DNA of 21,900 nt from positions 1-21,900 of the IMG/VR virus record IMGVR_UViG_3300032235_000595. One strand, given 5' to 3'. Below, piece after piece: positions 2,222-11,968 of the stretch (positions are counted from its first letter, which is position 1; every line of letters begins with the position of its first letter). This stretch comes from a virus. Made by a program: the position numbers and the translations under genes. The notes under the pieces were generated by a model that saw only the letters and a list, made by a program, of their open reading frames with translations, had not been told where the DNA came from and ran no database searches.

Positions 2222-2296
2222 TGGCGCTCTCGACAGGATTCGAACCTGCTACCTCAGGCTTTAGAGGCCTCTCTATACCAATACAGTTTCGAGAGC
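2222..2296 (-). tRNA. tRNA with amber anticodon CUA (suppressor tRNA 2)
   Basis: The 75-base minus-strand sequence has acceptor stem GCTCTCG with CGAGAGC, discriminator G, an encoded CCA, T arm GCAGG-TTCGAAT-CCTGT, and an anticodon arm AGGC-CTCTAAA-GCCT. The anticodon is again CUA, reading UAG. The D arm is weak and fits best as CTGT with ATAG after three spacer bases, and the outermost anticodon-stem pair is G-G. The body differs from tRNA 1, so this is a separate tRNA and not a simple copy, yet the anticodon loop is identical. It lies just downstream of a gene that ends TAG TAA. Confidence 0.83.
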
Positions 2297-4846: not shown

Positions 4847-5521
4847 TTACTTACGCTGTCCGAAAAGACTTAGTAAGTGAATAAACAAGTTGATGAAGTC
4901 CAGGTAAAGCGACATTGCTCCATAAACTTCCACAGCAGGACTATTGCTAGTTGCCAGCTGTTCCTTGATCTTTTGTGTGTCGTAGGCTGTTAAGCCCAGG
5001 AAAATCAACACTGCGGCAGCACTTACTAGCATAGCTAACACGGAACTTCCGATGAACAAGTTAATCAAACTCACAACAATAATTGCAATTAGACCAACAA
5101 GCAAGAAACTGCCCCAACTATCCAAACTCTTTTGTGTGGTATATCCATACAAAGTCATAGTTAGGAATAGAACAGCAGCACCCATGAACGCTTGGACAAT
5201 ACTAACTGCGGTATATGCTGCAATCATTGCAGACATACTAAGTCCCATTAGCGAAGCAAACGCAAGTAGTGTTACCAGCATTCCTGCTCTACCGATTCCG
5301 GAATTAAACAGCACGGGAACAAGGAAGATGAATGCCAGTGGTGACAACAGTGTTACCCAAGCCATAGCACCTGTAAAAAAGAATGCCATCAGTGCAGGTG
5401 TAACTGACACATACCAAGCAGTACCCATACTAGCCATTACAGCTAGGAACATATATTGATACACTCGAGTCATTGCTTGGTTAACATCACTGACTGTGCG
5501 CATCGTTGTTTGTGCAAACAT
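4847..5521 (-). CDS. Bax inhibitor-1/YccA-family membrane protein
   Basis: A 224-residue protein with about seven hydrophobic segments and the signature C-terminal part of the family: GLTAYDTQKIKEQL, then GAMSLYLDFINLFIHLLSLFG. Bacterial relatives such as YccA and YbhL act in the inner membrane; YccA modulates FtsH proteolysis, and eukaryotic relatives regulate cell death and calcium leak. GGAG precedes ATG at 5521 by 8 bases. The gene follows the tmRNA coding piece closely, has no separate promoter that I can see, and ends in a strong terminator, so it is likely the last gene of the tmRNA transcript. A role in delaying host membrane stress is inference. Confidence 0.92.
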   Translation of the reverse strand: MFAQTTMRTVSDVNQAMTRVYQYMFLAVMASMGTAWYVSVTPALMAFFFTGAMAWVTLLSPLAFIFLVPVLFNSGIGRAGMLVTLLAFASLMGLSMSAMIAAYTAVSIVQAFMGAAVLFLTMTLYGYTTQKSLDSWGSFLLVGLIAIIVVSLINLFIGSSVLAMLVSAAAVLIFLGLTAYDTQKIKEQLATSNSPAVEVYGAMSLYLDFINLFIHLLSLFGQRK

Positions 5522-5540: not shown

Positions 5541-5709
5541 TTAAGTGGCCCGTTCTGTTGCAAGGTGGGCCAGTCCCCGTTAGATTATGCTGCTAGAGCA
5601 AGATCCACATTGTTGTCATTAGCTGCGACATTTACAGTTTTGGCTTATATGCGGCCAACCAATCAGTCTACTCTCACCTTTGCCTTGCAGTCGATCCTAT
5701 GTCAGGCCC
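5541..5709 (-). ncRNA. ssrA: tmRNA, coding piece of a permuted two-piece ssrA
   Basis: The minus-strand RNA starts GGGCCTG at 5709-5703 and pairs fully with CAGGTCC of the acceptor piece (6005-6015), including a G3-U70 pair, the alanine identity mark. Then follow the D-loop analogue GGATCGAC, a pseudoknot-1 helix TTGGC/GCCAA, and the resume codon after AAATGTC. The tag frame (5626 to 5585) reads AANDNNVDLALAA then TAA, ending in the usual proteolysis signal. After the tag a TGGCCC/GGGCCA hairpin (5546-5572) follows; the 3' end near 5541 is an estimate. tmRNA rescues stalled ribosomes by adding the tag. No smpB gene is visible in the window, so host SmpB would be needed. Confidence 0.93.
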
Positions 5710-5723
5710 ATCATAAAGAAACA

Positions 5724-5990
5724 TTATTTCCAACGAACAGTTTGATTTAACGTTCGTTCTCTAAGAGTAACTTGTCTTTTTTCCTTGGCGGACAACGGCT
5801 TTTGCATTTTTTCTTTCTTAGCTGGCTTAACCTTTTCAGGACTTTTCCATTCTAAAAAAGTTTTTGTATGCTGTTGCCCAGAATCAAGATACTCTTTGTA
5901 TAACTTTTTATTTCGGTTAGCATGAAATTCCTGGCTAGCCTGTTTCGCTGCCGAAACTTCTTTCGAAGTTTTATTATTCATACCGCCCAT
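5724..5990 (-). CDS. small basic protein encoded between the two tmRNA pieces
   Basis: An 88-residue ORF starting MGGMNNKTSKEV at 5990 (an internal ATG at 5981 is an alternative), with AAGGA 8 bases before the start. An in-frame extension to 6047 is rejected because it would run through the tmRNA acceptor piece. The protein is highly charged and lysine-rich (KSPEKVKPAKKEKMQK, SAKEKRQVTLRERT), has no membrane segment and no recognised domain; it could bind nucleic acid. Its start lies 14 bases after the acceptor CCA and its stop 14 bases before the coding piece, so it fills the segment normally cut out as a short spacer. Confidence 0.8.
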   Translation of the reverse strand: MGGMNNKTSKEVSAAKQASQEFHANRNKKLYKEYLDSGQQHTKTFLEWKSPEKVKPAKKEKMQKPLSAKEKRQVTLRERTLNQTVRWK

Positions 5991-6004
5991 ACTATGTTTC
6001 CTTA

Positions 6005-6093
6005 TGGTGGACCTGCCGGGTACCGCCCCCGGGTCCTGCACAAACATCAGATTGTATCAACAACTGATCCTTTTATAGGGTTTCCCCTAAAAC
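6005..6093 (-). ncRNA. ssrA: tmRNA, acceptor piece of a permuted two-piece ssrA
   Basis: The minus-strand RNA ends CAGGTCC-A-CCA at 6005. Before it comes a T arm, CCGGG-GGCGGTA-CCCGG, with the non-canonical loop I associate with alphaproteobacterial two-piece tmRNAs. TTTG plus TGCAG can pair with CTGCA plus CAAA of the coding piece, giving helix P2. Further upstream are hairpins ATCAG-TTGT/ACAA-CTGAT and GGG-GAAA-CCC flanked by T and A runs. The 5' end near 6093, directly after the stop of the gene at 6095, is estimated. In the permuted layout this piece precedes the coding piece and is separated from it by processing. Confidence 0.9.
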
Positions 6094-6094
6094 T

Positions 6095-6418
6095 TTATCG
6101 AGTGTAGCAACGACGCTCGTAATAACGATTACCGTAATAATCGTAATTTACGATATCCTCACACACTTGAACTCTTTCACGTCTTTGGTTATTACTATTT
6201 GCAATAGCGGTACCTAAAATTAAAGCGCCGATACCAATAGCAATAGCTTCTTCCGTGTTAACACCATTTCGATCTCTGCGATAATTATCGTTACGACGAT
6301 GGTCGTGCCGATGATTTTCGTATCCTCGATATCCGTGTCGATGATTATCATGTGCCATAGCAGCGGTGCTACTAAGCAGCATCGAAGTAATAGCAATGGT
6401 AGACAATAGTTTTTTCAT
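6095..6418 (-). CDS. exported His/Arg/Tyr-rich protein with glycine-zipper segment
   Basis: A 107-residue protein with a signal peptide (MKKLLSTIAITSMLLSSTAAMA, cleavage near residue 22), then a stretch dense in His, Arg, Asn and Tyr (HDNHRHGYRGYENHRHDHR). Next comes a hydrophobic small-residue segment GIGALILGTAIANSNN like a glycine zipper, and two cysteines near the C-terminus (VCEDI, RRCYTR) that may pair. Periplasmic or outer-membrane placement is likely; metal binding by the His-rich part is possible. AGGAG precedes ATG by about 6 bases. It has a near-consensus promoter at 6450-6478 and ends directly before the tmRNA acceptor piece, so the two may share a transcript. No named family is certain. 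Confidence 0.8.
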   Translation of the reverse strand: MKKLLSTIAITSMLLSSTAAMAHDNHRHGYRGYENHRHDHRRNDNYRRDRNGVNTEEAIAIGIGALILGTAIANSNNQRRERVQVCEDIVNYDYYGNRYYERRCYTR

Positions 6419-7032: not shown

Positions 7033-9105
7033 TTACTTAGTAGTTGCGCGGAAAATTCCATCAAAGTTTTTTGGAGCAGGATGACTTTTCATGCGCTCGA
7101 CCATCATTGCGTAATAGCCTTCGAGTTCACCTTTCCATAGTGGACCCATTTCGTGAGCCATTGCTATAGCTCTATCCCAACGGCCTGCACGATAATGATC
7201 TAAGAATCTATTGTGTGCTCTTTCCGCTGCTCGGTCTTTCTTTTCAACTACGGTATAAATGTTAACTGGTTCAGTTTTTCCTTTGACTGCAAGATAGTCA
7301 AGTTCTATTACTTGATATACATCCCTAACCAAGTCCGCTGTCCTAGGCCCGATGATGAGTTTAACTCCATAAGGCTTGGATTGACCTTCGAGACGACTAG
7401 CCAAATTAACGCCGTCGCCCAAGCAAGTATAATCGAAACGCTGATCACTACCCATATTGCCAACAACCACATGGGCAGTGTTAATACCAAGGCCCATACC
7501 AAAAGCTGGGATCCCTTCTTTTGTAATTTCTTCATTGAATTCCTTTAAATCGTTGAGCATTTTAAATGCGGTCTTAACTGCATCAAGTGCATGTTTTTCG
7601 TTGTTGAGTGGTGCATTCCAAAAGGCCATTTGTGCATCACCAATGTATTTGTCTAATGTACCTCGGTTTTCAAGAATCGATCTAGTCATCACAGTCATAT
7701 AACGATTCATAATTGTAGTTAGCCCTTGCACATCTCGTCCGTAATGTTCCGAGATTGTAGTAAACCCGCGAACGTCAGTGAACATTATTGACAGTTCTTG
7801 CTCAGTTCCTCCAAGATGCAATAGTTCAGGTTGACGCTGTAATTGTGCAACCAAGTCTGGACTTAGATAGGTTCCAAATTGCTTTTTAATTTGCTGCTTT
7901 TGTAGGAATTCTGCAATATACTTAACAGAGTAAATGTGCATATAAATAATTATTGCTGCAATTACGTTAAATGTTATATCAAACAAGATCTTGTTGTTGG
8001 CAAATAGATATACTGGAGAATAAATGTATCCAGCTAAAAGCAAACTGATCCAGATTATAGAGTAACGAACATTTGATAAGATAATAATTGCCAAGGAGAG
8101 TAGTGCAAATGCAACAAGATCTACCAACGACACCCAGTTCGGAATCGCCACAGAATCCCCGTCAATCAAAGTCTGAAGAAGGCTGGCCTGAACCTGAAGC
8201 GGCATTTTCTCGCCCGACGCAGTCGCTAAGGGATTTGCAATACCATCAGCCGTTGGACCCAGCACCACAATTTTACCTGTCAAATCAGGCAAAGCCGTGT
8301 CACCTATTTCGAATGACTCAAATTGATAGTTCGGATTCATAAACACACGGCCGTATTCGTCTGTGTTAATTTTACCAAATTGGGGGATTCGTAATGCTTC
8401 GACGCCTGTTTGATTTATTTTTGCTTGGTATGAGGAGTCGCCAGCAGCAACCCTCAACATCTCAATCGGAAACGCAGGATAATACTCACCCTTCGAAACG
8501 GCCAACAACGGAACTCGACGAACAATACCGTCAGATTCAGGCAGTGTCGAAGTTATCCCGACGCCTGCGGCATTCTCTTGTAGAACCGAAATATTATCCA
8601 ATACGCAGGGATAATTCGGAAGAAAATCAGTAGGACTACCGTCGCCTATTACGGCGACGCCGGTTTTCCGGGTGTTGGTGTTATTACGTGTACATTCTTG
8701 ATTAACGGTTTGAGCGATAACAACAGGGTAGGTTTGGAACGCGGCGGCGAGCTGTGAGTCTTGGCCAAAGCGGTCGTGCTCTGGAAACATAACAGTAGTG
8801 CCGACAAGGCCAGCGTTGTGATTGTAAATGTCTTGGATAATTTCTGCATGAGTACCTCTTGGAAATGGCCATTGGCCGTATTTTTCAATTGCTTTTTCGC
8901 CAATGTTAGCCACTACTATATTACTAGATTTGACAGGTTTGTCAATCATTAAGTAGTCATAAAATTTTAATCTATTGGCTTCGACAAGATAAGGATCAGA
9001 TATTTTAACAGCTAATAAGACTGCCACAGTTAACAATGCCAACCAAGGTGAAAGTAAAATTCTTTTAATTGTTTTGTTTAACATTGATAATAGTCCCGCC
9101 GTCAT
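7033..9105 (-). CDS. CHASE2-domain class III adenylate cyclase
   Basis: A 690-residue membrane enzyme predicted to make cAMP from ATP. The order is an N-terminal membrane helix (about 20-38), an extracytoplasmic CHASE2 sensor domain (about 40-320), three membrane helices (about 325-395) and a cytoplasmic class III cyclase domain (about 430-630). The metal-binding Asp residues are seen in FTDVRGF (D444) and KYIGD (D490), and the transition-state Asn and Arg in GVNLASRLEG (N567, R571). K486 and the DYT near 558-560 favour ATP over GTP. ATG at 9105 overlaps the FecR gene by 41 bases; 9084 is an alternative start. It is the last gene of the curli-type unit. In bacteria FecR and CHASE2-cyclase genes are often neighbours. 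Confidence 0.93.
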   Translation of the reverse strand: MTAGLLSMLNKTIKRILLSPWLALLTVAVLLAVKISDPYLVEANRLKFYDYLMIDKPVKSSNIVVANIGEKAIEKYGQWPFPRGTHAEIIQDIYNHNAGLVGTTVMFPEHDRFGQDSQLAAAFQTYPVVIAQTVNQECTRNNTNTRKTGVAVIGDGSPTDFLPNYPCVLDNISVLQENAAGVGITSTLPESDGIVRRVPLLAVSKGEYYPAFPIEMLRVAAGDSSYQAKINQTGVEALRIPQFGKINTDEYGRVFMNPNYQFESFEIGDTALPDLTGKIVVLGPTADGIANPLATASGEKMPLQVQASLLQTLIDGDSVAIPNWVSLVDLVAFALLSLAIIILSNVRYSIIWISLLLAGYIYSPVYLFANNKILFDITFNVIAAIIIYMHIYSVKYIAEFLQKQQIKKQFGTYLSPDLVAQLQRQPELLHLGGTEQELSIMFTDVRGFTTISEHYGRDVQGLTTIMNRYMTVMTRSILENRGTLDKYIGDAQMAFWNAPLNNEKHALDAVKTAFKMLNDLKEFNEEITKEGIPAFGMGLGINTAHVVVGNMGSDQRFDYTCLGDGVNLASRLEGQSKPYGVKLIIGPRTADLVRDVYQVIELDYLAVKGKTEPVNIYTVVEKKDRAAERAHNRFLDHYRAGRWDRAIAMAHEMGPLWKGELEGYYAMMVERMKSHPAPKNFDGIFRATTK

Positions 9106-10132
9106 TTACTTGAAGGTCAAAGATTCTATTACCGACGTCTATTTTTAAATTACTGCCTCGTTCTTTATCAACAGCAATATCAAATGTTGTGCCGACATTT
9201 CGAATAAATCTGACCTTATCTTGTTCAATGATTGTATTTATTTGAGTAAGTTCGTTAAGGCCAAATGTAGTTCCTGTAATCTTTATTCCATCCTTGGTGT
9301 CGGCAAGCTCTCCACTATTAAGCAGTGCATCTTCAAGGAAATTATTATTGATAGAAAGAACATCAATTGCAGAATCAGCTAAATCGCGTTCCTCAAGATC
9401 ATCGTTCTTCAAATAGTCTATGTCTAATTCGGAAAGATCTAATATATTGGATTTTGTACCAATTGCTTCGTCTTCATCTTCACGAATCGTCGGAGGACTA
9501 ACAATTAGCATGTTGTCAATCATGTCTAAAGTAAGATTCAGTGTAACAGGTTTACTAGGAGCAGAGTCGTAGGTTGATACTACAGTTGCTTGAAAAGCAC
9601 GAGTTAAAATTACGGTGCCACCTGCATTACTTACGGTGATCTCTCCTACTGTGCCGTCTTCTTCAGGCAAGAGAATAACCAAGCTCTTACCAAAGTCATC
9701 TACTGTAGAAGTAAAATCAGTGCCACGAACTGCAATAGTTGCAGTAGGTGTTCTTAAGTTAATGTTGGGTTTGGCGATGCCCTTGCCTGTGGCAAAGCGA
9801 ACAGTGCCACTGGCAAACTTTAATGCCATTCTTGATGTAGAGGGTTTGCCACTATAAACAAAGTCGTCAATTACAAGTTTAGAATGCTCAGTTACTTTGA
9901 CTGTGGTTTGATCCACAAACTTTATTTCTAACCGTCCATTGCCTGTTTGTACCCTATCCATTTTTTGAATAGGAAGTTGAGGCCGTGCGCTGACTGTTGT
10001 AGTCCTGCGTACGACCTCACCATTTCCTCGTTGTTGATTAATGGTTCCTATATTAGCAAGCGCCGGCGTTGCACTGATTAATAACAACAGTGCTACCATT
10101 ACTTTGCGAAGTGATTGAAATTGCGTCAACAT
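9065..10132 (-). CDS. exported FecR-domain protein
   Basis: A 355-residue protein with a signal peptide (hydrophobic MVALLLLISATPALA, cleavage after ALA near 26). A FecR domain then spans roughly 35-165: RTTTVSARPQLPIQKMDRVQTGNGRLEIKF in pattern, then SGTVRFATG and TPTATIAVRGTDF, the last being the family's hallmark. The C-terminal half is acidic and unassigned. FecR domains act in the periplasm in signalling or anchoring. ATG at 10132 overlaps the curlin gene by 80 bases; ATG at 10099 would cut this to 47 but shorten the signal peptide. It may pass a periplasmic signal to the CHASE2 cyclase encoded next; that link is inference. Confidence 0.9.
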   Translation of the reverse strand: MLTQFQSLRKVMVALLLLISATPALANIGTINQQRGNGEVVRRTTTVSARPQLPIQKMDRVQTGNGRLEIKFVDQTTVKVTEHSKLVIDDFVYSGKPSTSRMALKFASGTVRFATGKGIAKPNINLRTPTATIAVRGTDFTSTVDDFGKSLVILLPEEDGTVGEITVSNAGGTVILTRAFQATVVSTYDSAPSKPVTLNLTLDMIDNMLIVSPPTIREDEDEAIGTKSNILDLSELDIDYLKNDDLEERDLADSAIDVLSINNNFLEDALLNSGELADTKDGIKITGTTFGLNELTQINTIIEQDKVRFIRNVGTTFDIAVDKERGSNLKIDVGNRIFDLQVNDGGTIINVKQNN

Positions 10133-10748
10133 TTAATGTGCTCGTTTGATTAACAGTAAAGTTATTAGTATTACCAGTTAGTGTCATATTAATATTCTTG
10201 TTTGGATTTCCATTCTGAAGAACATTAACGTTGTTACCGCTTCCAGTAATAGCAGTGGTGTTCACTGTGTCGTCTGCATTGACCACTGAAGTGTAGTTGT
10301 TTTGATCACCGAGTATTGTGATGTTCTGTGCAGCACCAGTAGATGATGCAACATTACCTTGTGTTAAGTTAACAGTGTTAGAACTTCCGGTAACTGCCAA
10401 AGTTGTGCTGGATCCTGCAACGCTGCCGGCACTACCAAGATCAAAGTTAACAGTATTGTTATCACCTGTGTTAGTAAGATCAATATTAATGTTATCTGCA
10501 TCCACGATAGAACCCTGTATTGAGTTGCTGCCGCCGGATTGAGTAACATCAACTGTTTGGTTGTTTCCCTGTAATTGAAAACGATCGTTTTCCGTACCAA
10601 CCGTATTTGATTGGCCGCGCTGTGTTATGTTAATTGTACTACTATCACCAACTTGATCAATATAGATTGAGTTAGTAGTTGATTGTGCCATTGCCAATGA
10701 AGAAGCCATCAGCGACATAATCAAAGTGTATTTTGCTATGTGTCTCAT
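10053..10748 (-). CDS. curlin-repeat fibre subunit (CsgA/CsgB-like)
   Basis: A 231-residue exported protein (signal peptide ending AMA near residue 21) made of repeats rich in Asn, Gln, Ser, Thr and Gly, such as INITQRGQSNTV, VDVTQSGGSNSI, VNLTQGN and VNVLQNGNPN. These match the curlin pattern of alternating Asn/Gln positions that stack into amyloid, though less regular than in E. coli CsgA. Two cysteines stand at the very end (NQCNAGAC), unusual for curlin. GGAGG lies 12 bases before the start, three bases after csgG ends. The product is predicted to be secreted through CsgG and to form or seed an extracellular fibre; whether it is major subunit or nucleator cannot be told. Confidence 0.88.
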   Translation of the reverse strand: MRHIAKYTLIMSLMASSLAMAQSTTNSIYIDQVGDSSTINITQRGQSNTVGTENDRFQLQGNNQTVDVTQSGGSNSIQGSIVDADNINIDLTNTGDNNTVNFDLGSAGSVAGSSTTLAVTGSSNTVNLTQGNVASSTGAAQNITILGDQNNYTSVVNADDTVNTTAITGSGNNVNVLQNGNPNKNINMTLTGNTNNFTVNQTSTLNVDAISITSQSNGSTVVINQCNAGAC

Positions 10749-10751
10749 TTG

Positions 10752-11525
10752 TCATTTATACCTCCATAATTCTCTGTCTATGCCTTGCTTAATTAACTGA
10801 ACTACTGCTGCTTCAATGGTCATTTTTACTGCCTTTGTTACAACTTCGTTTTCAGTCATTCCTGCTTCTGCTTCGACTAATTTTGTTCCTAGGTCAACAA
10901 ACTTAAAGACATTGATACTTTGCCCAACTGACAGTATAGTTTTTGAAACTTGTACATTCAATAAGACTTCGCCTGTTTCTGTAGAAACTGCTCGCAGGGC
11001 CACTACAACGGTGTCCTTGCGATATTGACGGTCTGCACCAATTCCTAAGTACCTTGCTCCAACGCCGCCGGTTAACGTGTTCGAGTCGTAGCCAATAATT
11101 CCACCTTGCAGAATTAATCCTGCAAACAACATGGGTTTTAATTTATTGGCATCTTCGCCCATGTATTCTTCTCGAGTCTGTCTAACAATTTGCCGTTCTT
11201 TAGCCAAGTCGTCGACTCTGTTACGCTCAACAACAGTAAACCAACTGCCGTTGCCTGCGTTCTTTAATGCATCGATCAATAATGTTGTACCGCCCTGTGT
11301 AACTGCATTGGAAAAACTAGCAGTAGCACCCGAGTCTTTACGCTGACCAGTTAGATCCGGAAAATCGTAGACTGTGACCACGGGTTTTTGCGCTGGTGCT
11401 GGCAACATCTTTAACTCTGAATATGATTCCAATAATTTAGGTTCTTCAGGTGTGACCAAGGTGCCCTCGGGTAAGTGAGTGCAACCAGTTAATAAAAATA
11501 GTGCAAGAAGGATTGACTTTTTCAT
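10752..11525 (-). CDS. csgG: CsgG, curli secretion channel lipoprotein
   Basis: A 257-residue protein with lipobox LLTGC (Cys 15). Strong resemblance to E. coli CsgG runs through most of its length: LPAP near residue 42, VTVYDFPDLTGQRK, FSTAV-like FSNAVTQG, WFTVVERN, GGIIGYDSNTLTGGVGARY with LGIGADRQYRKD, then STETGEVL, SKTILS and GIDRELW. CsgG forms a nine-subunit outer-membrane channel for unfolded curlin, with two transmembrane beta hairpins per subunit, and both hairpin regions are visible. The start overlaps the csgF stop (TAATG). It is slightly shorter than the E. coli protein at the C-terminus. Identification is secure. Confidence 0.97.
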   Translation of the reverse strand: MKKSILLALFLLTGCTHLPEGTLVTPEEPKLLESYSELKMLPAPAQKPVVTVYDFPDLTGQRKDSGATASFSNAVTQGGTTLLIDALKNAGNGSWFTVVERNRVDDLAKERQIVRQTREEYMGEDANKLKPMLFAGLILQGGIIGYDSNTLTGGVGARYLGIGADRQYRKDTVVVALRAVSTETGEVLLNVQVSKTILSVGQSINVFKFVDLGTKLVEAEAGMTENEVVTKAVKMTIEAAVVQLIKQGIDRELWRYK

Positions 11526-11968
11526 TAGAATTTAAATTGTCCTATCGGTATTTCTATTACAGTTACATTGTTGTTTTCATCTGTAATTGTAAGTTTAACA
11601 GTGTTCAAAGTTTGTTCGTAGGCAATAGTATTACCATCCAAATCAAAAGACCCTGCACTGTCTCCATTGGCAAACAAATTCTGTGTCAGCTGTTGTGCTA
11701 ACTGTGAGTATATTCTCGATTGTAGGTTATTCATAAAGCGATTGAGAATTGAATTCTTTTCCTCAAGGGCTTTTGCTTTTAGGTCAGCTTCAATTTTATC
11801 TTGAATTTCCTTAACGCGAGATCTTTCTTGATTTTCAATAGTCAGCCATTGTGCGCCGGTGTTAACACCACTGAAGGAAGGATTTTTGAATTGAAAAACT
11901 ATTTCACTGGCGGCCGCTGGACTGCTTAGACTTAACAGTATCAGGCTCAGACTCAATATCTTTTTCAT
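11525..11968 (-). CDS. csgF: CsgF, curli assembly factor
   Basis: A 147-residue exported protein with a signal peptide ending AAA near residue 20. The mature start EIVFQFKNPSFSG corresponds to the E. coli CsgF segment TMTFQFRNPNFGG, the part that inserts into the CsgG pore. Conserved spacing continues with SRIYSQLAQQL, then a strand-rich end LKLTITD-like VKLTITDENNN and VIEIPIG. CsgF couples secretion of curlin to nucleation at the cell surface. A strong AGGAGG site lies 10 bases before ATG. It directly precedes csgG, as csgE-csgF-csgG do in Enterobacteria; no csgE is seen here. Confidence 0.93.
   Translation of the reverse strand: MKKILSLSLILLSLSSPAAASEIVFQFKNPSFSGVNTGAQWLTIENQERSRVKEIQDKIEADLKAKALEEKNSILNRFMNNLQSRIYSQLAQQLTQNLFANGDSAGSFDLDGNTIAYEQTLNTVKLTITDENNNVTVIEIPIGQFKF

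Follow-up and report, generated by a model that had tools for sequence, protein, structure and literature searches.

The locus described here raises the question of what a protein gene is doing in the part of a tmRNA transcript that is removed during maturation. The window, by which we mean the whole stretch of 21,900 nucleotides that was analyzed (positions 1 to 21,900 of the IMG/VR virus record IMGVR_UViG_3300032235_000595), carries a tmRNA gene of the permuted, two-piece form, in which the acceptor piece precedes the coding piece. The intervening sequence (IVS) between the two pieces holds an open reading frame, referred to as P0001 in the following. All of these features lie on the minus strand:

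6005..6065 (5' end approximate), minus strand: acceptor piece of the permuted tmRNA, supported by RF04321 and RF01849 above gathering score and by the sequence, with the T-arm GGACCCGGGGGCGGTACCCGG, the 3' acceptor strand CAGGTCC, the discriminator A and an encoded CCA ending at 6005
5710..6004, minus strand: IVS of 295 nt, its bounds given by the full 7-bp acceptor stem with G3-U70
5724..5990, minus strand: nested ORF P0001, 88 aa with stop codon TAA, fitted in the IVS
5541..5709 (3' end approximate), minus strand: coding piece of the tmRNA, with the 5' acceptor strand GGGCCTG at 5709-5703
5585..5626, minus strand: tag reading frame AANDNNVDLALAA and its stop codon, read from the sequence; most orthologous loci share this tag

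Judged by its sequence, the locus is a genuine and intact viral permuted tmRNA gene. The initial annotation had recognized the two pieces from the letters alone (CCA end at 6005, coding G at 5709, complete 7-bp stem with G3-U70) and had named a covariance model as the appropriate check, and its reading is borne out. In a cmscan search, RF04321 (tmRNA_permuted) scored 66.6 bits against a cut-off of 47 (5585-6065, minus strand) and RF01849 (alpha_tmRNA) 65.5 bits against a cut-off of 50 (5544-6105, minus strand), both over the full model length and with both pieces covered in permuted order. The acceptor arms GGGCCTG and CAGGTCC pair at 7 of 7 positions, G3-U70 included, and are followed by the CCA at 6007-6005. 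The tag AANDNNVDLALAA, which had been called intact, is indeed read at 5626-5585 (GCA GCT AAT GAC AAC AAT GTG GAT CTT GCT CTA GCA GCA TAA) and ends in Ala-Ala before the stop codon. ARAGORN did not call this tmRNA, no smpB was identified within the 21.9-kb fragment, and no group I intron family was found in the window by cmscan with Rfam.

In its gene order, acceptor stem, G3-U70 pair, CCA, tag frame and model scores, the gene resembles the permuted tmRNAs of Alphaproteobacteria (RF01849/RF04321). It differs from them in its IVS, which in bacteria is typically 3-60 nt long and ORF-free, but here spans 295 nt and contains a gene and a 13-bp helix. For the permuted tmRNA of Orientia, Northern blots have demonstrated that the precursor is processed into two pieces (PMC7335160). 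Two-piece tmRNAs are also already known from marine phages, namely Melnitz and the pelagimyophages (PMC9004378), which share with the window virus a marine, myovirus-like setting, curli genes and the permuted tmRNA itself; that paper, in its accessible part, describes a glutamine riboswitch along with the tmRNA and does not mention an ORF in the IVS. In the Melnitz genome (L396, MZ577097.1, around 46,096), we find a 142-nt IVS with the same helix and an unannotated ORF of 54 aa. A motif of this ORF, PKYLSG, is also present in the spacer ORF of another viral locus (L234).

Two further relatives of this arrangement are described in the accessible part of a tmRNA database paper (PMC11915505). In the group I intron form of tmRNA, which carries LAGLIDADG/homing endonuclease genes, a protein gene likewise lies within the removed part of the transcript, but there it resides in a self-splicing intron in the T-loop and here in the IVS of the permuted form. 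The same source lists single cases of permuted tmRNAs whose IVS contains a tRNA-Ala or a repetitive element; these, too, have extra cargo, but it is an RNA or a repeat, and no protein gene is mentioned there. We found no published report of ORFs nested in a tmRNA spacer in the literature covered, which included few subscription papers and preprints, and protein genes nested in the removed tmRNA spacer appear to be undescribed before. They have escaped notice for two reasons: annotation treats such a locus as RNA and masks it, as in Melnitz, and ARAGORN fails to detect the long gene in the window.

Pattern scans of IMG/VR and of isolate phages yielded viral permuted tmRNAs in which both pieces are present, 235 in total and 145 distinct. 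An ORF was regarded as fitted if it has a start codon led by a Shine-Dalgarno sequence (SD) 5-30 nt past the CCA and a stop codon -32 to +45 nt from the coding piece. P0001 is such an ORF (start +14, stop -14, SD AAGGA), and fitted ORFs are found in 44 of the 145 distinct tmRNAs, in a sample that is enriched for long spacers. The initial annotation had described the nested arrangement as not known elsewhere; none turned up in the literature covered either, but the arrangement is no one-off among viruses. Where the IVS is at least 100 nt long, 39 of 74 tmRNAs have a fitted ORF in the sense direction, compared with 0 of 74 when the IVS is reverse-complemented in place. Our first sample, which was not selected for length, included four tmRNAs with a spacer of at least 180 nt, and in all four a sense ORF fills at least 86% of it. 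The remaining samples were chosen by length or type, and the overall fraction of ORF-bearing spacers is therefore no population estimate. Upon re-testing with Rfam, 14 loci that bear an ORF or stem from cultured phages pass RF04321, some of them together with RF01849 and some alone.

Bacterial two-piece tmRNAs were described as having short, non-coding spacers by the initial annotation, and this agrees well with our data: most cellular spacers are 3-60 nt long (n=55 examined), and none of the 55 has a fitted ORF, including four long ones of 115, 232, 277 and 292 nt. Likewise, the tmRNA spans are short in the class around Ruegeria, where 105 of 115 genomes score over the cut-off. When 84,980 species genomes were scanned for alpha-type spacers with a length of about 250-310 nt, 15 pattern matches were obtained, just four of which have a spacer longer than 250 nt. 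Two of these belong to Rickettsia and have no fitted ORF; the other two are MAG contigs with ORFs of viral families, one of them 29,883 bases long, which is also the length of a viral record. Because they carry viral ORF families, these two contigs are probably viral, and with the two Rickettsia being ORF-free, we rejected a bacterial origin of the ORF-bearing spacers. L210 (PBDU01000009.1) and L218 (PALK01000009.1) have permuted tmRNAs with viral spacer ORFs and lie in MAGs labeled Euryarchaeota and Rickettsiales; they are probably misbinned viral contigs and may bear on reports of archaeal tmRNA.

We propose that the IVS of this viral tmRNA gene acts as a slot, in which a small protein gene is carried as cargo within the loop of a processing hairpin; we consider this reading probable. 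The hairpin is closed by a helix between the two ends of the IVS, with the following elements in the window:

5994..6006, minus strand: 5' strand of the helix, CAUAAGGAAACAU, whose first two bases are the last two of the CCA
6003-5999, minus strand: Shine-Dalgarno sequence AAGGA, within the 5' strand of the helix
5712..5724, minus strand: 3' strand of the helix, AUGUUUCUUUAUG, supported by pairing, the minimum free energy (MFE) fold and covariation
5710..5711, minus strand: dinucleotide A(-2)U(-1) preceding the RNase P site

This helix, which the initial annotation had not noticed, comprises 13 of 13 possible pairs between CAUAAGGAAACAU and AUGUUUCUUUAUG, one of them G-U, in the register CA.../AU/GGG. 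It stacks on the acceptor stem, with A(-2)U(-1) left between helix and coding piece. The MFE fold of the precursor shows the T-arm, the acceptor stem and the IVS helix, with the SD fully paired (z -5.7). The IVS-closing helix is found in 107 of 121 viral IVSs. Across 95 distinct viral spacers of at least 40 nt, a mean of 9.67 of the 11 positions in columns 3-13 are paired, whereas strands with swapped partners reach a mean of 6.90 and, among 2000 swaps, a maximum of 7.38; sliding the strands by 1-3 bases reduces the pairs to 4.1-6.5. The helix also covaries among viruses, with at least three pair types in several columns. Among IVSs with a length of 34 nt or more, 86 of 100 viral but only 5 of 27 bacterial ones form 11 or more of the 14 pairs, and AU stands ahead of the coding piece in 88 of 100 viral and 13 of 27 bacterial ones.

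In the proposed mechanism, the helix of about 13 bp formed by the IVS ends would extend the acceptor stem across a mismatch, and the ORF would be located in the loop that it closes. The helix would hold both halves of the tmRNA in register at any loop length, so that the loop could gain, lose or swap cargo without harm to the mature RNA. The ORF would be translated via its own SD from the nascent or unprocessed precursor, and RNase P and 3' trimming would free the two tmRNA pieces and thereby destroy the message. The footprint of a ribosome extends about 15 nt to each side. A ribosome at the start codon of P0001, 14 nt past the CCA, would thus reach the CCA end, and one at its stop codon, 14 nt ahead of the coding piece, the 5' acceptor strand. 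With the SD in the helix and the acceptor strands covered by ribosomes, a transcript would at any moment be either message or tmRNA precursor, and we infer that, on one transcript, the acceptor stem should not be closed while a ribosome initiates or terminates. A competition between processing and translation had been suggested in the initial annotation; the burial of the SD in the helix and the distances of start and stop codons fit this idea, and the argument is one of geometry.

Such considerations could be taken a step further. The helix might have been selected as a translational regulator, that is, as a switch that times the production of the nested protein against that of the tmRNA from a single promoter. 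Besides the fully paired AAGGA of the window, this is favored by the enrichment of an SD inside the helix in ORF-bearing IVSs (21 of 44, vs 6 of 77 ORF-free viral IVSs; p = 1.4e-6), by a G-U pair at the SD in 14 of these 21, and by their start codons, which lie 9-18 nt past the CCA, where the 30S footprint would reach the acceptor strand. Pairing of the leader with the 3' RCCA is moreover known to slow RNase P (PMC9433436). On the other hand, the SD lies outside the helix in 23 of the 44 ORF-bearing IVSs; in about half it is found just past the helix, and burial of the SD is therefore not universal. Furthermore, many ORF-free viral IVSs have the same helix, which accordingly is not there for the sake of the ORF and more likely acts primarily in the folding or processing of the precursor. 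For these reasons, a switch of this kind appears possible, but we do not favor it. We are similarly tentative about a more general version of our own proposal, in which the viral spacer is a general exchangeable gene slot and the conserved helix couples the translation of the cargo to tmRNA maturation, making every transcript either a message or a precursor of tmRNA. Since A(-2)U(-1) is the optimum for RNase P (PMC9433436) and RCCA pairing slows the enzyme, the conserved mismatch next to the cleavage site seems to be a trade-off between helix length and cleavage.

In some viruses, ORF and helix overlap at the 3' end of the spacer as well: certain IVS ORFs stop at a UGA just before the coding piece or extend 13-42 nt into it, and their final codons are encoded by the helix strand. 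A family of tiny membrane ORFs of 29-40 aa with the C-terminus ...YLIFF (L065, L023, L175, L177, L199 and L226) has its last codons in the 3' strand of the spacer helix.

The history of the locus was traced with its coding-piece signature, which is common to 17 other viral loci, and with its neighbors:

6095..6418, minus strand: upstream neighbor, 107 aa, with 28-54% identity in 12 of the 17 related tmRNA loci
4847..5521, minus strand: downstream neighbor, a Bax inhibitor-1 (BI-1) family membrane protein (Pfam PF01027, 2.8e-48)

Given the matches to the upstream neighbor, the locus is orthologous in these viruses. The BI-1 neighbor was rejected as an anchor for relatives, as the family is too widespread and yielded four further tmRNA loci. 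The orthologous spacers are 5, 9 or 119-127 nt long; none of those in the 17 related loci has an SD-led ORF, and the longer ones retain a helix of 12-14 bp with a different sequence. Relatives with a frameshifted spacer ORF, which the initial annotation had envisaged as evidence against its reading, are not what we observe, since the orthologous loci are without an ORF altogether. The comparison indicates that these viruses have retained the tmRNA but replaced the IVS in its entirety; within this sample, only the window virus has P0001. We also considered the 119-127 nt spacers as known ribozymes or tRNAs, which was rejected: Rfam gave only the tmRNA and weak chance matches, and ARAGORN no tRNA. 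Two of the loci with a 119-nt IVS (L383 and L388) have a canonical-looking T-arm, TATAGGTTCGAATCCTATA, which adjoins the helix as in a degenerate tRNA and is not called by ARAGORN.

The IVS ORFs are largely unrelated between viruses. They include small membrane proteins of several families and short proteins that contain cysteines, as well as a thioredoxin with CGPC (L408, L420 and L424; PF00085, 4e-21), a PGDYG protein (L405; 3e-6), a DUF6356 protein (L090; 5e-12) and a LAGLIDADG endonuclease (L142; 6.5e-5, and 2e-14 for the endonuclease phrog_5046). The thioredoxin gene is complete and small, occupies a spacer of 268 nt, has its SD in the helix and stops one base before the coding piece. The LAGLIDADG gene lies in a 511-nt spacer of a permuted tmRNA in which no group I intron was recognized. 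Where families could be compared, the substitution rates point to purifying selection on the nested ORFs of other viruses, P0001 being without a relative to compare: dN/dS is 0.05-0.13 in the family MTKITKENTP (dS 0.5 to above 1), about 0.16-0.32 in the families around L173/L203/L236, L235/L239 and L411/L428, and about 0.4-0.66 in the family around L125/L135.

The LAGLIDADG gene and the blockwise exchange of the IVS between orthologous loci would also be expected if the IVS were a landing site for mobile DNA, specifically for homing endonuclease genes, and the small ORFs were remnants or hitch-hikers. However, of the distinct ORFs seen, a single one resembles an endonuclease; the remaining ones are intact and fit closely between the pieces, and those that could be tested are under purifying selection, which makes this origin unlikely. 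P0001 itself has no match to a LAGLIDADG or other endonuclease domain.

For P0001, the segment described in the initial annotation (295 nt, with an SD-led ORF of 88 residues 14 nt from each piece) was recovered at the same coordinates, 5710-6004 for the spacer and 5990-5724 for the ORF. The predicted protein has a pI of 10.2, with 17 K and 5 R. We found no homolog with peptide patterns in IMG/VR or with tblastn in isolate phages, and nothing usable in Pfam, PHROGs, NCBIfam, PADLOC or a PDB sequence search; the DNA of the tmRNA region has no similarity to isolate phages either. A single-sequence model consists of two helices, with a mean pLDDT of 75.7 and a low overall confidence (pTM 0.34), and gave nothing usable in Foldseek. 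The codon usage of P0001 is only weakly phage-like. The in-frame codon score is -0.8, compared to a mean of -18.7, a 99% level of -2.7 and a maximum of about 0 in 1000 shuffles; other genes of the window score higher than P0001 per codon, and the intrinsic coding evidence for P0001 alone is therefore modest.

This score, the lack of homologs in these searches and the structured 119-127 nt spacers of close relatives, which have no SD-led ORF, could suggest that the 88-aa ORF is a chance frame in a long structured spacer, with only the spacer RNA or its helix being of importance and the tmRNA being an ordinary one. Yet just 1 of 5000 dinucleotide shuffles of the IVS gives an ORF of at least 88 aa, fitted SD-led ORFs are present in 20 of 32 IVSs of 200-300 nt and in none after reverse complementation, and known protein families fill the same slot in other viruses. 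A chance frame thus seems quite improbable, and P0001 is probably translated in the manner proposed above. Its product, small, basic and predicted to be helical, probably serves as an accessory protein with no relation to tmRNA. That the IVS ORF products might instead regulate tmRNA by binding it, SmpB or RNase P and thereby controlling maturation or trans-translation, extending the idea of the initial annotation that the product might act on tmRNA or its maturation, is suggested by their nested position and by the small, basic and predicted helical P0001, which resembles a possible RNA-binding protein, but it is very improbable, since the cargo is unrelated across viruses (many membrane proteins, one thioredoxin and one homing endonuclease), which makes a common tmRNA-directed function unlikely, and since many viral tmRNAs do without any IVS ORF.

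The window contains further features of interest. Two tRNA genes with the anticodon CUA (1713-1789 and 2222-2296, minus strand; amber-reading, ‘Pyl’ in ARAGORN) lie 3-4 kb from the tmRNA; no CUA tRNA was found in 194 other tmRNA-bearing loci. They prompted us to consider TAG recoding in the window virus, which was rejected, as TAG still terminates 3 of 34 predicted genes. Readthrough of host amber stops would make clients for tmRNA. Moreover, an operon at 7033-11968 (minus strand) encodes a CHASE2-adenylate cyclase, a FecR-domain protein, a curlin-like protein (recognized by eye), CsgG and CsgF, and much of the same CHASE2/FecR/Csg set is found on a 154-kb contig (L361) with 37-64% identity.

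Many aquatic viruses share the nested arrangement; we find it in roughly a third of the distinct permuted tmRNAs in our sample, which is enriched for long spacers. The arrangement makes part of the small-protein repertoire of these viruses visible, and it offers a possible reason why viruses keep the permuted form, as the spacer is free space. One transcript would give rise to two products, and as a transcript should be either processed by RNase P or translated, such loci would be a clean system for studying the competition between ribosomes and RNA maturation. Melnitz is in culture and has both the helix and a 54-aa IVS ORF, which makes this question testable.
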